Positions 52,605 to 58,775 of a stretch of DNA of 64,000 bases are shown here, piece after piece. The stretch spans positions 248,317-312,316 of the forward strand of contig CAUYUJ010004291.1 of NCBI GenBank assembly GCA_963575745.1, read 5' to 3'. The notes beneath the pieces were generated by a model. The model made no database searches, was not told the origin of the DNA, and was given only the letters and a program-made list of their open reading frames with translations. The position numbers and the translations under genes were made by a program. The stretch comes from Prorocentrum cordatum (Eukaryota; Sar; Dinophyceae; Prorocentrales; Prorocentraceae). The first letter of the stretch is position 1. The number at the start of each line of letters is the position of its first letter.

Positions 52605-52891
52605 GTGGAACAAGAAAAACAGCATCAACATAAACTTGTGGCGCTCCGCGCGGATTTCTTGGATCTGCGCTGGACCCCCTTCCTTAGACGAGCGCGTTCC
52701 ACAACTCGCAAGGTTCCTACTTGGAAATGCAAATGGCCTGGATCCGCCGCGGGGGATATACGATGTTTTACGTCGATGCGACCGTGAGGTTTCCGAACGT
52801 TTGCGAGGCGCAGCCAGGGGGGCCAGCGCGGATCCAAGAAATCCGCGCGGAGAGCCAAAAGTTTATGTCTATGGCGTTTTTACTTCTTCGA
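52605..52891. mobile_element. Hairpin element outside the Rieske CDS, TCTA duplication
   Basis: The ends match the introners of the Rieske gene (ACATAAACTTGTGGCGCTCC...; ...AGCCAAAAGTTTATGTC with CTTCTTCGA). The element is flanked by an exact TCTA at 52601-52604 and 52892-52895. An extra approximately 110 bp occupies the loop. Confidence 0.75.
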
Positions 52892-53059
52892 TCTAATCGC
52901 ATTCGGATTCATGCGTAGGGGAACAAACAATTCGGGGAGGAGGAGAAGGTACCCATACCGCCAGCCTGCCCTCGTCTTCACCTTTTGGGGCCTCCTGATA
53001 GGCCCCCGTCGCCACCGCTGGGCTCGCCTCGCAATTCTGGTCAGGGCCCAGGAGAGGTA

Positions 53060-53212
53060 CAGAGGGGGTAGCGGTGTCGGTGACTTTTTGGGTTCCGCGC
53101 GGATTTCGGGGCGGCGTCGGAGGCGCCGCCAGTGAGCCCCAGCGTCGAAACGAGGAGTCCGCGCGGACCTCCGAGTTTTATGTCTATGTCATTGCTTGTT
53201 CCCCGGATTCTG
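53060..53212. mobile_element. Degenerate short hairpin element
   Basis: TGGGTTCCGCGCGGATTTCG and GTCCGCGCGGACCTCCGAG with TTTTATGTCTATGTC match the introner arms, but the ends are decayed. Confidence 0.5.
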
Positions 53213-53487
53213 GAGTGCACGTGGGAGAATGGAAAAAGCCACCGATACCGCCACTACACGGCTCTCTCCTGCGCTGCGTTCTGTCCAGGATCTCGAGGCG
53301 AACGCAGCCATGGCGCCGAGGATGGGGAAAATAGCGGCGTCGGCTCCTTGTCCTCCACTGAGCAAAGATGTCTCGCTGTGGCGGCCTCGAGCCGAATCTG
53401 CTGACGAACATCAGCAGGCCACGCAAAGATCTGGGAACGAAAAGCGGGGAGGGAGAGGCGCGCCCCATGACGAGCGCTGCCTCGGCG

Positions 53488-56400
53488 TCAGGCCGTGCCG
53501 GCCTGCATCTGGAGGGTAAACGTGCTGCTGTACTCTGGCATGCTAGATGAAGAAAAGTAGCATACGCATAAACTTTTGGCGCTCCGCGCAAATCTCTTGG
53601 ATCTGCTCTGGGCCCCCCTCCCTGGCGCGCGGAGCGCGCCAGGGGCGGCCCCGGAGGCGCAGCCGGGGGGGCCCAGCGCGGATCCAAGAAATCCGCGCGG
53701 AGCGCCAAAAGTGTATGCTTATGGCGTGCTTTCTTTTTCGAATGTTGCGCTCGTTCAGCTGGTCTCCGCGCAGCCCAGAGAGGACCATGCTAGGGGAAGA
53801 AAAAGACGCATGAATCTATACTTTCGGAGCTCCGCGCGGGTGTCTGAGGCCAGCGTGGCGGACCTCCCTCCCCGGCGCGCAGAGCGCACCAGGGGCGGCG
53901 CTGGAGGAGCCGCTGCTGGAGGGGCCCAGCGCCGGTCCACTCCGCGCGGGGCTCCGAACATATATGCTTGCGCGAGGCTTTCTTCCTCGACATGTTTTGG
54001 AAGCGGTGGACGGGCCAGTCGAACTCGGGGAGGAACTCCCCCAGCACGTCTGCCCGCCCCGCCTGGACCAGCCCGCGCTGGAGGTTCTCGATGGCCCCGA
54101 TGTCCTCCTCGTTCACGTGGCGGACAAACCTCCAGAGGTCCTCGCACTTCTGCGCGTACTGGTCTGGCGTTGGAGGCGACAAGGGAGTCTGAACTGGTTG
54201 GGACCCCAGGAAAATCGGTCAGGCGGCTGGGGGGGATGAAGCCGAATCCGCTCCGAATAGATCCCTGGACCCCTCCAAGGGCCCATCTGGTCCAGCTTCC
54301 ACACCGGATCCGTCTTCACGGCCCCAGGGCCCGAAAACGACCCGTGGAGGCCGAAAAGGCAAACAACTTCCCCCCGAACCCAGAACCCCGTCCCTGCCCA
54401 CCCTCCCTCCCTCCCTCCTCCCTCCCTCCTCCTCCTGCTCCTCCTCCTCCTCCTGCTCCTCCTCCTCCTCCTCCTCCTCCTCCTCCTCCTCCTGCTCCTC
54501 CTCCTCCTCCTACTCCTCCTACTCCTCCTCCTCCTCAGCCAGTGCTGGGCCACCTCAGACGCCCAGCCAGCTCCAAGTCTGGCGTGTCCTCCTCCTTCCT
54601 GGCGTTGGGCGCCATGAGGAGGGTCAGCTGCTCCTTCGTCTCTCCGGCCACCGCGCCAGGGAAGCAGATCAGGCTGAAGACGGAGTGCGGGTAGATGACC
54701 AAGCTGATGTTGGGAAACACCTGAAAGAACACCGAAGAACAAACAGCCACACGCACATGCACTTGCGGAGCTCCCCGCGGCAGTCTTCGATCGGCCCTGG
54801 GGCCCCCCCCTGGTGGCGCCCCCGGCGCCGCCCCTGGCGCGCCAGGCCCAGCGCCGATCCAGGGAATCCGCGCGGAGCTCCGGAAGTGCACGCCATGGTT
54901 GCTTTCTGCTCTCCGAGAAGAGGCCCGCGGAGGACTCCGCCTTCCGCAGGCGGGGGAAGTGGTTGAACAGGTGCGAGTCTCCAGGGCCACCGCAGTCCGT
55001 CAGGGGCGCCGTGCAGAGGCCGACGTACTGGCCTCTGCCCTGGTAGCTCATGTGGTCCTCCACCCTGGAGAAGTTCGCCAGCGCCGGGTGCACGGCGTCG
55101 ATGTTAGAGGAAGACAACATGGCATAAGCATAAACTTTTGGCGCTCCGCGCGGATTTCTTGGATACGCGCTGGGACACCCCTGGCGGCGCCTCCGGCGCC
55201 GCCCCTGGCGCGCTCCGTGCGCCAGGGAGGGGGTCCCAGCGCGGATCCAAGAAATCCGCGCGGGGCGCCAAAAGTTTATGTGTACGCCGTGTTCTCTACT
55301 TCGAGATGTGGTAGAAGTCGACGAAGTTCTCGGCGATGAGCTTCCAATTGCCCTTGATGTCGTAATCAATGGCCCGGTGGAGGCCCATGTCGCCGAGGTC
55401 GTAATTGCTCAGCTTCTCTGGCAGGTCGCCCAGCGTGTCCAGAAGCGGGGGAGGGTTTGGCGCCTGGTTCAGGAAGACGACGCCGGCGAAGACCCCGACG
55501 CCGGGAACGGGCAGGAGCCCCAGGTTCTCCTTGCGCTCTTTTGGGGTGTGAGCAGGGGGCGTTGCCTTCAGCGTGCCGTCGAGACGGTACGCCCACCAGT
55601 GATAGGGACACACGAGCTGCTTGCACTTCTTCTGGCTGGACGAACAGACCCGAGCGCCCCGGTGGCGGCACGTGTTGTAGAGCGCGTGGATCTTGTTTGT
55701 CTTTCGAGGAAAGACCATCGGCATCTGCACAAACTGTCGGAGGTGCGCGCGGACTTCTCTGACCTGCGCTGGACCCCCCTAGCGGCGCCTCTTCCGCAGC
55801 CGCCGGCGCGCTCCACGCGCAGAGGAAGGGCGTCCAGCACCGATCCGAGAAATCCGCGCGGACCACCGAACGTTCTGCTTCTGTCGATGTCTCTTCTTCG
55901 AGTCTTGTCGCACGTGAGTATCCACCACCGTGCCGCGAGGCGCGAGTTGGAGTGTCCTGAGGACCCTTGAGCCCTCCGTTCAGTCCTGCAGGTTGGATGT
56001 GAAAGAGTCCAGGCCCCAAACTGCCAGATTTCTTGGGACGTGTCCCGCGATGTCCCGATGTCCCCAAAACGGGCTCTCAGAGGCTTCCGAGAGGCAGTAG
56101 AGCAAATAAGAGAACTGCATAAGCATAAACCTTCGACGGATCCATGCGGTTTTTGTTGACCTGCGCTGGACCATCCGCCGTGGCGCGCGGAGCGCGCCAG
56201 GGGCGGCGCCAGAGGCGCCGCCAGGGGGGCCAGGCGCGGATCCAAGAAGTCCGCGCGGACCGTCCAAGTTGACGTGTATGCCATACTCTGGGTTCTTGGT
56301 AAGCGTGGGGGGGTACCCCCCGACGGGTCAACATCGCCTCGTCGTCGCGCCGCGACGGGGGTTGGAGCGCCTTCGGCGCGCGCTGGCTGCCCGCGACGGG

Positions 56401-57706
56401 GGTCGATGTGGGGCTGTCGGCGGGGGTGACGCCCTCCCGACGCTCATGAAGAAACTCGGGGTATTCTCTTCTTCCCAGTCATGCGACGTCCTGATGTTTT
56501 TTCAGTCCAGCGCCCCCGGAAGTCCCGACCCTTTCCCCGGGGCCAGTTTTTCATCCTGAATCGTTTTTTTGAAGCTCCCGGGGCCCGGCGAGGGCCCCCA
56601 GGGGCCGAAGATAGCGAGATACCGCCCGTCCTGATCTCTGTTACGCCGCGAGCACGCTCTGGGTCCGAGGCTCCCTGCAGGCGGATTCCGGAAGGAGACT
56701 TTTACGACGCGGTCAACAAGTCTTCAACAATGGTCAAAGTCGAACATAGTCACAACATCGTCCCCAGACTTTTTTAACAACATGTTGTTTGACTGACTCC
56801 TCCTGTAGAGGGGCAAGCATGCCCGACTCGAGCCTCGTTCTGGAAGCGAACGCGATCGGATCTCAACTATGGGGGAAGCACAACCTACCCCCACCCCCAG
56901 CCAGGACCCTCGCTCCCGACCCGGTGGACCAGGGGGTCCCGGCTCAGGATGGGAGTGGTGTGGGGGAGCTCCTGGGGGTCAAGATCGGGGGTTGCTGAAG
57001 GTGCCCCTGGCCCAAGGTGCCCCCAGCTTTTCGCCCAATTTTGGAGCCCCTGGGGCCCTCTTGGCCTCGTGAGGGGTGCTCTGGAGGCCGTGGGGGCCTC
57101 CTTGGAAATCCTGGGGGCACCTTGGGCCAGGGGCACTTCTAGCAACACCCGACAAGAAGCCACCCTCGCCCCCAGCCAAGACCCCCTGGATCACCAGGTC
57201 GGGAGTAGGGGTTCTGGCTGGTGGTGGTGGTGGTGGTGGTGGTGGTGGTGGTGGGTTTCGGTGGCGAGCGAGGGAGGGACATGAGAGGGAGAACGCCTTC
57301 TCAGAAGGCGGCGGGCCTTCTCCGAAGCCCTCGCGCCTCCTGAGAAGTTTTTGTCTTCGAAGAAGGCTCAGAAAACTTCTCAGAAGGCCAGGGGACAGCC
57401 GAGCCTTCTGAGAAGGCCTTCTCCTTCTCACTTCCCCCCCTCGCTCGCCGCCGAGGGTTGTGCTGTCCTCACACTGGCAGAAGGAAGCGGGCTGGGCCGA
57501 AGGCCACTAGATAATGGAGGTTTCCCCGAACTCCACGAGCTTCACGTCCCCGGGGCTCGACAGCTCCTGGACGTGGGCCGCCGCGAACCACTGCGTGCCG
57601 AAGATGCGCTCCCGCTCCGCGGCGGCGTACGCCTCGTCGGTGTAGAACGCGGGGTGCAGGCACTTGGCGTCCTCGATGCGGCTCGCCGTGTGACAGGCGA
57701 GGGCTT
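53488..57706 (-). CDS. Rieske non-heme iron oxygenase, multi-exon
   Basis: The exons assemble into a choline/carnitine monooxygenase-like Rieske protein, which uses a [2Fe-2S] cluster and mononuclear iron to hydroxylate a small substrate. Exon a (57510-57706): FYTDEAYAAAERERIFGTQW. Next exon (55308-55703): TNKIHALYNTCRHRG...CPYHWW, the C-x-H...C-x2-H cluster site with 17 residues between, then GNWKLIAENFVDFYHI. Then 54917-55103 (DAVHPALANFSRVEDHM), 54554-54729 (FQVFPNISLVIYPHS), 53992-~54195 (NEEDIGAIENLQRGL, probable iron Asp), 53742-53789 and 53488-53542, stop at 53490-53488. Joining across the element at 55104-55304 gives YHIDAVH, the family's H-x4-H iron motif. The true N terminus and the junctions between 55907 and 57510 are unclear. 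Substrate is not inferable. Confidence 0.8.
53543..53741 (-). mobile_element. Introner A in Rieske gene
   Basis: A 199-bp hairpin with arms around CGCTCCGCGCGGATTTCTTG. ATG is repeated at both borders (53540-53542 and 53742-53744). The minus-strand 5' border is TCGAAAAAG, with no GT; the 3' border is CTAG. Confidence 0.8.
53790..53990 (-). mobile_element. Introner B in Rieske gene
   Basis: A 201-bp hairpin. CATG flanks both sides (53786-53789, 53991-53994). Minus-strand ends TCGAGGAAGAAAGC and TTTTTCTTCCCCTAG form the terminal inverted repeat. A GT-AG reading is possible here and also keeps frame (adds one codon). Confidence 0.8.
54196..54553 (-). other. Conventional-looking intron with (CTC)n
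   Basis: It lies between the LVIYPHS and NEEDIGAI exons. A donor AG|GTGGCC fits at 54554/54553. The interior carries a (CCT)n array (54405-54540). It does not resemble the hairpin elements. Confidence 0.5.
54730..54916 (-). mobile_element. Introner D in Rieske gene
   Basis: A 187-bp hairpin with a GAA duplication at the borders. Removing the element and one GAA copy reads SAGLFFQVFPNIS, a normal Rieske sequence. There is no GT at the 5' border. Confidence 0.75.
55104..55304 (-). mobile_element. Introner C in Rieske gene
   Basis: A 201-bp hairpin. GATG flanks exactly (55100-55103, 55305-55308). Removing the element plus one copy restores YHIDAVH. GT-AG alternatives run into a stop. Confidence 0.85.
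55704..55901 (-). mobile_element. Introner E in Rieske gene
   Basis: A 198-bp hairpin with an exact GTCTT duplication (55699-55703, 55902-55906). Exact excision joins WILTCDK to TNKIHALYNTC in frame. Confidence 0.8.
56095..56300 (-). mobile_element. Introner F, in the long intron of the Rieske gene
   Basis: Arms CATAAGCATAAACCTTCGAC and GTCCGCGCGGACCGTCCAAG with the usual loop (GGCGCGCGGAGCGCGCC). Ends are less clear; no duplication was identified. Confidence 0.6.
56516..56610. repeat. Dispersed repeat X (six copies, 56.5-61.8 kb)
   Basis: Core words are CCTTTCCCCGGGGCCAG, TTTTTCATCCTGAATCG and GGGGCCCGGCGAGGGCCCCC. Plus-sense copies lie near 56516, 59291 and 60127; reverse copies near 58388, 61379 and 61733. 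Length is 90-100 bp. Confidence 0.75.
56711..56829. repeat. Dispersed repeat Y (three copies)
   Basis: GTCAACAA..., then ACATCGTCCCCAGACT, then CTCCTGTAGAGGGGCAAGC and ATGCCCGACT. Other copies lie at 59164-59286 and 62848-62950, all in the same orientation. Confidence 0.75.
57296..57430. repeat. Cluster of CTTCTCAGAAGG palindromes
   Basis: At least five CCTTCTGAGAAGG-like short palindromes lie in 135 bp, preceded by (GGT)n at 57221-57253. They lie inside the long intron of the Rieske gene. Confidence 0.7.
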
Positions 57707-58152: not shown

Positions 58153-58561
58153 GGCAGAATGGGCCTGCCTGGCGCTGGGCGCGGGAGGGCTGCATCGCGG
58201 GAGGTGGCGGGCTCGGCGAGCGTGGGGGGTAGCTGCCACGGGCCGCCGGGCGGAGTGGCCCGGGGAAGCTGTTTTTTTATGGGCTAGTCTGGGGTACTTA
58301 CGCTCCCGCCTTTGCAGCGCCTGCTGTTCCCAGACAGCACCGCGTCGTGAAAAAATCTGGACGGCCGGCTTTCGGCCGTTTTCGGCCTCGTAGGGCCCTC
58401 GCCGGGCTCCGGGACCGCCAAAAAACGACTCAGGATGAACAACTGGCCCCGGGGAAGGGGTCGGGACTTCAGGGACGCCGTCCTGAAAAAATCAGGACGA
58501 CGACCATCTGGGTTGGCTCCCGACTCACAAACTCGCTCGGCATGTGCCGTCTGCTTCTGCT

Positions 58562-58775
58562 CCCTAATCCCTAATGTGCCACGCCGTGGAGGCCCCCGCG
58601 GCTCTTTCCTGCGTCGGTGCTGGACGCCCCTTCCCCTGGCACGCGGAGCGCGCCAGGGGGCAGCGCCGAGGCTCCGCCTGGGGGGGAGGGGGCACCACAG
58701 ATCCGATGAATCCGCGCGGGCCTTCGAAAGTGCACGCTTGCGCTGCCTTGTCTCCTTCGGTACGTACTCGGAGGA
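58562..58775 (-). mobile_element. Introner H, upstream of the Rieske exons
   Basis: The typical loop (GGCACGCGGAGCGCGCC) and one arm (GAATCCGCGCGGGCCTTCG, AAAGTGCACGCTTGCG) are present; the other arm is decayed. A further upstream Rieske exon may lie beside it, but none is recognised. Confidence 0.55.

Follow-up and report, generated by a model that had tools for sequence, protein, structure and literature searches.

Probable Hairpin Transposon-Like Introns with Non-GT-AG Borders in a Rieske Oxygenase Gene of Prorocentrum cordatum

Five hairpin elements of 185–200 bp interrupt a Rieske oxygenase gene on the minus strand of the 64-kb stretch of Prorocentrum cordatum DNA which was analysed as a whole (the window), and the first-pass annotation, which had reported the elements at the same places, is confirmed in this observation. 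Their reading as DNA transposons with terminal inverted repeats (TIRs), whose intron borders are set by the target duplication and do not follow GT-AG, is supported. According to the proposed explanation the elements would be nonautonomous, MITE-like introners, each of which landed in a Rieske gene exon, where 5 bp of target were duplicated; in the transcript the two arms would pair as one long hairpin, bringing both target copies together, and the RNA would be cut and rejoined within these copies with the loss of the element and of one copy. Because the cut and the rejoining would fall within the target copies, the coding sequence would come back whatever the border letters. This proposal as a whole is considered quite likely.

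The Interrupted Gene

Prorocentrum cordatum is a photosynthetic red-tide dinoflagellate. The assembly comprises 4.13 Gb, and the window corresponds to positions 248317–312316 of contig C4291. In a profile search the exon pieces of the interrupted gene matched the Rieske (PF00355) and Ring_hydroxyl_A (PF00848) families, and the top NCBIfam match was glycine betaine monooxygenase GbcA with a score far under the curated cut-off. The gene is composed as follows, in the direction of its reading frame.

57513..57690, minus strand: most upstream exon identified, ending in GETSII; start provisional
55922–57512, minus strand: 1,591-nt (1.6-kb) intron, coordinates given for the AT-GG register
55704–55901, minus strand: element E, 198-bp hairpin; intact 5-bp GTCTT at 55699–55703 and 55902–55906
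55105–55304, minus strand: element C, 200-bp hairpin; intact 5-bp GATGT at 55100–55104 and 55305–55309
54732–54916, minus strand: element D, hairpin of 185 bp with one mismatch in five between its target copies
54171–54585, minus strand: 415-nt intron, bordered by a 9-bp direct repeat, ACGCCAGAC (minus strand)
53791–53990, minus strand: element B, hairpin of 200 bp with one mismatch in five between its target copies
53544–53741, minus strand: element A, 198-bp hairpin, ends read by eye
53486..53542, minus strand: final coding piece, PEYSSTFTLQMQAGTA followed by the stop; approximate coordinates

Removal of each element together with one copy of its duplication restores the reading frame, as had been claimed, and the resulting junction peptides are kept, with ordinary substitutions, in 40 aligned homologue rows, the exceptions being the mis-spliced P0003 and the partial model P0004, which deviate at several sites of the alignment. 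With the inferred protein of the window gene as a query, 355 of 8,000 scored candidates were homologues, the best 120 of the 355 being listed; this query wrongly included nine residues of the 415-nt intron (LELAGRLRD), which are absent from the homologue rows.

P0003 is the public NCBI model of the window gene (NCBI name Prorocentrum cordatum). Its protein retains element sequence (AGLFSESRKQPW, FQNMSRKKASR), and its Ring_hydroxyl_A match is split into two stretches, the best of which spans only positions 3–32 of 208. According to the genome paper, the annotation code for P. cordatum was altered to allow GC and GA donors besides GT (PMC10666404).

The Element Family and Its Target Duplication

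The genome was searched with two queries. At first look the search gave 3,187 and 3,563 candidate places over the whole genome, which are candidates and not counted copies; 40 candidates were scored per query, and 40/40 matched in both searches. From 78 loci 91 near-full-length copies were then taken, and their termini were set without using the flanks. Both termini were recognised in 90 of the 91 copies, which agrees with the suggested DNA transposons carrying TIRs and a target duplication. The one copy without recognisable termini was left out of the duplication count, as was L026, which is the same as L025 where compared.

Exact 5-mers flank 13 of the 90 copies, C and E among them, which is above the shuffled expectation (mean 0.24, maximum 2 in 500 shuffles). 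Exact flanking repeats of other lengths are represented by no 4-mer (0/90), one 6-mer (1/90), and five 3-mers (5/90; shuffled mean 1.4). The target duplication of the family is 5 bp. Thus the duplication described earlier around each window element stands, being exact in C and E, while the length of 3–5 bp given for it is replaced by 5 bp with decayed copies in A, B, and D; in A the copy CATGC (53539–53543) is opposed to ATGT on the other side, with one base lost. The 77/90 copies without an exact 5-mer at the set ends are accounted for by decay or misplaced ends.

The family termini are close to TCGAAGAAGA and TCTTCTTCTA, and a related subgroup, which includes a copy on contig C17467, has TAGGGGAACGAA-like ends. 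The candidate signature of an autonomous partner of the family is a 5-bp duplication with TCGAAGAAG ends. Further copies or fragments lie at 52607–52686, 52805–52895, 53109–53209, 56101–56289 (within the 1,591-nt intron), and 58605–58762, so that every family match in the window sits at 52.6–58.8 kb, in or around the Rieske gene. Another repeat group, around CGTCCTGAAAAAATCAGGACG, occurs at 58343–58363 and 58479–58499, with a similar stretch in the other orientation at 56510–56640.

Folded as RNA, element C with its flanks reaches −162.6 kcal/mol (z −16), and the C17467 element forms a comparable hairpin (z −15). The 415-nt intron, which contains a long GGA-rich tract, is not a hairpin (z +0.73) and its inverted ends are weak: in the TIR test 10/300 shuffles were as good, which does not set it above two ordinary introns (16/300 and 14/300). 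With its longer duplication it looks like another transposon-type insertion. The 1,591-nt intron has no clear inverted ends. Neither of these two introns was among the five elements of the first-pass annotation. The window elements themselves have three of the features by which introners are recognised, namely, many dispersed similar copies, TIRs, and a target duplication of fixed length.

Border Registers in the Window Gene and in Controls

For each junction every register giving the required protein was listed and inspected for GT-AG, GC-AG, and GA-AG. Such U2-type ends (GT, GC, or GA with AG) are in register in 0/7 introns of the window gene, whereas they are in register in 10/10 control junctions from three other loci (Fisher p 5e-5, with the reservation that introns of one gene are not independent). 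The controls included six junctions of the paralogue on contig C19166, based on a transcript-like protein, and two junctions each of C15149 and of the TauE-like gene L013, based on homologues; the control set leaves out the C15149 junctions from residue 231 to residue 373 and, in C19166, the first exon. The controls offer 4–16 registers per junction and the window introns 4–10, and the chance of a canonical pair is about 11% at ten registers; since the controls have up to 16 registers, luck helps some of them a little.

The possible borders of element A are CA-AG, AT-GC, TT-CA, and TC-AT, with NERNMPEYSS as the restored product, and those of B in register are CA-AG, AT-GC, TG-CA, GT-AT, and TC-TG. 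Element C, located inside YHIDAVH (the H-x4-H motif), has six registers, E has seven, the 415-nt intron ten, and the 1,591-nt intron four, and GT/GC/GA-AG is found in none of them, nor in any register of D. U12-type splicing was rejected, as AT-AC is in register only for C and there in one of six registers. A single fixed register with common end letters was also rejected, because none fits all cases when the registers of the window and of C17467 are compared by eye.

Thus the earlier statement that GT-AG splicing does not fit A, C, D, and E holds and extends to GC-AG and GA-AG, which are equally unusable unless conserved residues change. Element B had been named as the exception, and GT-AG is indeed possible there, yet only with one extra codon, giving FQNIMVLSG, a form absent from all 40 homologue rows shown, one of which is P0003. 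When changed proteins were allowed, D fits GA-AG at the net cost of one residue in GLFFQVFPN, in E a GA-AG junction is possible if one residue is gained and others are altered, A needs larger changes, and C has no in-frame GT/GC/GA-AG candidate in the range searched.

Ordinary introners with displaced GT/GC/GA-AG sites, each altering the protein by one or a few residues, could make use of these fits of B, D, and E and of a GC-AG that was noticed by eye in another exonic copy (L013a) and would add one codon; codon-adding introners are indeed described in PMC9860276. The lack of any candidate in C is against this explanation, and so is the absence of such length changes from the homologue rows; moreover, a protein matching the C17467 gene (P0241, described below) is joined in the duplication register, whereas with the alternatives GC-AG or GA-AG residues would be lost. 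Displaced sites are accordingly regarded as quite improbable.

Other exonic copies agree with the window elements only in part. In L013a the conserved spacing GVLLNGLLP is restored with no GT/GC/GA-AG in register, and none of the 39 homologue rows covering the site changes in length. In the GH47-like L057 an in-register GC-AG is available, and L005b offers an in-register GT-AG, the latter copy being only putatively coding since it has no family match. Canonical in-register sites are thus available in 1/8 protein-supported exonic copies (A–E, L013a, L063, and L057) or, when L005b is added, in 2/9, against a chance expectation of 8.5% of 5-bp targets, which indicates that the exonic position of a copy does not depend on canonical sites. 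L002, open by reading frame but with no protein family found, was rejected as an exonic copy and excluded from these counts.

Uninterrupted Paralogue and Selection

The paralogue on C19166 encodes P0001 and P0004. P0001, derived from a 1,551-nt JGI contig, fits the C19166 exons with zero mismatches at the junctions tested. C19166 is uninterrupted at six of the seven intron sites of the window gene (A, C, D, E, 415-nt, and 1.6-kb); for example, TPDQYTQKC, lying in one exon, represents the uninterrupted site of the 415-nt intron. Element B is uninformative in this respect because at this codon boundary C19166 is itself interrupted by a GT-AG intron of its own. As the paralogue is uninterrupted at six of seven candidate young introns, the intron gains can be read base by base.

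Over 366 codons the window gene and C19166 differ with dN 0.056 and dS 0.340 (dN/dS 0.16), a pairwise value that is also compatible with recent loss on the window branch. Such a loss is the core of another explanation, in which the window gene is a decaying duplicate that collects unspliced exonic transposons and only the C19166 paralogue is functional. In its favour, the paralogue has a transcript-like protein, while for the window gene none near 100% identity is present among the homologues listed, the best being the paralogue at 86%. Nevertheless, the compared pieces contain no stop and no indel despite dS 0.34 and the decayed target copies of B and D, and the C17467 gene shows a related element removed. 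The window gene as a decaying duplicate is therefore unlikely; rather, it would be transcribed and handled like the C17467 gene.

Probable Removal of a Related Element in the C17467 Gene

On C17467 an exonic related element (L063) lies between the target copies CACAT and CGCAT. Its flanks were joined in the duplication register and the predicted protein was used as a search query. The best match, P0241 (388 aa, from a 1,975-nt JGI contig), is identical across the whole predicted query, and 388/388 of its residues map to C17467 in three blocks, i.e., with two introns. The element intron is 204 nt long with four registers (CA-CG, AT-GC, TC-CA, and CA-AT), and since the junction histidine requires the left target copy, the 3' junction falls 2–5 nt past CCCCTA, which was taken as the element end. 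The second intron of 2,634 nt (L103, 323–2958) has the registers TC-CG, CT-GT, and TG-TC, none of them canonical, so GT/GC/GA-AG is in register in 0/2 introns of this gene. Its inverted ends are better than those of 300/300 shuffles and it does not belong to the 200-bp family; it is possibly a larger relative of the transposon-type introns with noncanonical borders.

Because the coding span on C17467 is 4.0 kb, the 1,975-nt contig must lack the large intron. Judging by this length, the contig, whose nature as RNA or DNA is unlabelled, is best read as a spliced cDNA, and the removal of the related element at a noncanonical, duplication-register border is strongly indicated. On this reading the related element of another gene would pass the cDNA check proposed in the first-pass annotation.

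It might be supposed that P0241 comes from an allele or strain which never carried the element or the 2.6-kb intron and is silent on splicing, since the JGI contig is environmental and a protein sequence alone is the same for an uninterrupted allele and for precise excision; furthermore, none of the 120 rows listed in the P0241 search is named P. cordatum. However, both inserts would have to be missing together, and the 388/388 residues are identical, whereas the element has diverged by 6.2% from its subfamily consensus and the C17467 target copies differ at one base of five. A split before the insertion predicts 3–9 residue changes, with the reservation that the 6.2% may include pre-insertion differences. 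This origin of P0241 is very unlikely. A retrocopy as its source was rejected as well: the listing of a search with P0242, a 90% relative, contains a single near-identical locus, C17467 (91 and 88%), followed by fragments on C17043 at 79–82% and the rest at ≤64%, and the fragmentary paralogue on C17043 is an exact match to none of P0241–P0248.

Ciliate-type DNA elimination also takes out TIR elements precisely, together with one target copy, so that programmed removal from DNA instead of RNA could be imagined. The elements are present in the assembled DNA, and dinoflagellates are not known to have a separate somatic nucleus; removal at the DNA level is scarcely credible here.

Possible Machinery of Excision

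With RNA removal within the target copies as the preferred reading, two kinds of machinery can be considered. The foot of the stem is the duplicated target, which suggests that pairing joins the copies and that the cut occurs within them, and pairing would thus guide the cut. Hairpin-guided cleavage and ligation outside the ordinary spliceosome are slightly favoured. The hairpin was nevertheless rejected as the rule for every noncanonical intron, and pairing is not the whole story, because the 415-nt and 1.6-kb introns share noncanonical borders without a strong hairpin or TIR.

The same main claim could also be served by the ordinary spliceosome with relaxed ends, the pyrimidine-rich TIR acting as acceptor and the hairpin holding the ends, which comes somewhat short of an even chance. 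The elements are pyrimidine-rich at the 3' side, where the TIR gives TTCTTCTTC, the two hairpin-less introns have noncanonical borders too, and U1 genes are present: 35 matches were found in the genome, 14 of them over the gathering score, and the usual ACTTACCTGG end was read by eye in two U1 loci. In tunicates about 95% non-GT/AG introns have been linked to changed U2AF and snRNAs (PMC13326754). Against relaxed ends, no end dinucleotide is common to all cases whatever the register, and the 5' ends of the elements are unlike the U1 complement.

RtcB-family genes are represented by eight matches in the genome, two loci being in several pieces. At C15625:1270–2400 a full-length RtcB-family match is contained in one open frame with no introns, and it could be a retrocopy or contamination. 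Neither the presence of U1 nor the RtcB-family loci decide between the machineries. A second excision route beside the spliceosome, reading the hairpin and the duplication instead of splice-site letters, can be put forward for P. cordatum only tentatively and is rather doubtful.

Relation to Known Systems and Meaning

Borders set by the duplication had been presented by the first-pass annotation as the unusual part; the borders in register are indeed noncanonical, yet noncanonical introner borders are not new in dinoflagellates. In Amoebophrya A25 and A120 more than 60% of introns are noncanonical, of which 11% and 30% carry inverted and direct repeats, and the noncanonical borders of the introners are backed by RNA-seq (Farhat et al. 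2021, PMC7789003). Like the P. cordatum elements, these introns have hairpin inverted repeats with short direct repeats (3–5 nt in Amoebophrya) over the borders, are not GT-AG, and spread like nonautonomous DNA transposons (PMC7789003). Amoebophrya, however, is a parasite with undetectable U1 and mostly noncanonical introns, whereas P. cordatum has retained U1 genes along with ordinary introns, and the element family there differs by recognisable ends and by a duplication of constant length, 5 bp.

Introners with GT/GC/GA-AG have been described in many algae (Gozashti et al. 2022, PMC9860276), and those of P. cordatum were treated by Dougan et al. 2023 (PMC10666404), Roy et al. 2023 being also cited for introners. 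They too are TIR DNA transposons with a target duplication and give rise to new introns in algae, among them dinoflagellates, but they splice at GY-AG or GA-AG recruited from the element or the duplication, and most exonic copies examined in this work offer none.

The nonconventional introns of euglenids and hemistasiid diplonemids (PMC4770533, PMC6221363, PMC12621601) are alike in their structure-paired ends, the lack of GT-AG, direct repeats at the borders, and a proposed MITE origin, and in some species they coexist with ordinary introns as in P. cordatum; the lineage itself is unrelated. In euglenid introns pairing is reported to be conserved at positions +4 to +6 and −8 to −6. Pairing of the ends without GT-AG is found in the hairpins of C and of the C17467 element and is not found in the 415-nt intron. 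In SOS splicing of animals DNA transposons are cut from mRNA and the exons are rejoined free of the spliceosome (Zhao et al. 2026, as described in the review PMC13247085); there the ligation is performed by RTCB, while P. cordatum is known here only to have RtcB-family loci.

In the open-licence PMC literature searched, no report of such borders in P. cordatum was found. As far as these searches show, the new part is the presence of duplication-set noncanonical borders in a photosynthetic dinoflagellate which keeps U1 and ordinary introns. The case thus extends a known oddity to such an alga, and one confirmation at the sequence level comes from outside the window.

The origin of new introns, and the way in which a fresh exonic insertion avoids harm, is a long-standing question. 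If core dinoflagellates generally remove transposon introns in the duplication register, such introns would spread without splice-site letters, and gene models based on GT/GC/GA-AG would misrepresent the genes concerned, just as the public model misrepresents the window gene. An alga with U1 and ordinary introns would then be a good system in which to look for the machinery still sought after the work on Amoebophrya and euglenids. If the tentative second route is true, a transposon could enter almost any exon and be silent at once, and many such introns, some of them hairpin-less, would be missing or mangled in the same models.

Intron positions in the Rieske paralogues on C4291, C19166, and C15149 are hardly ever shared, only B and one C19166 intron coinciding, which points to rapid intron turnover. 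In L013 the GTAC at the start of a 774-nt GT-AG intron (about 1005–1778) stands directly ahead of a family terminus, TCGAAGAAGAC; here an introner may have become an ordinary intron.
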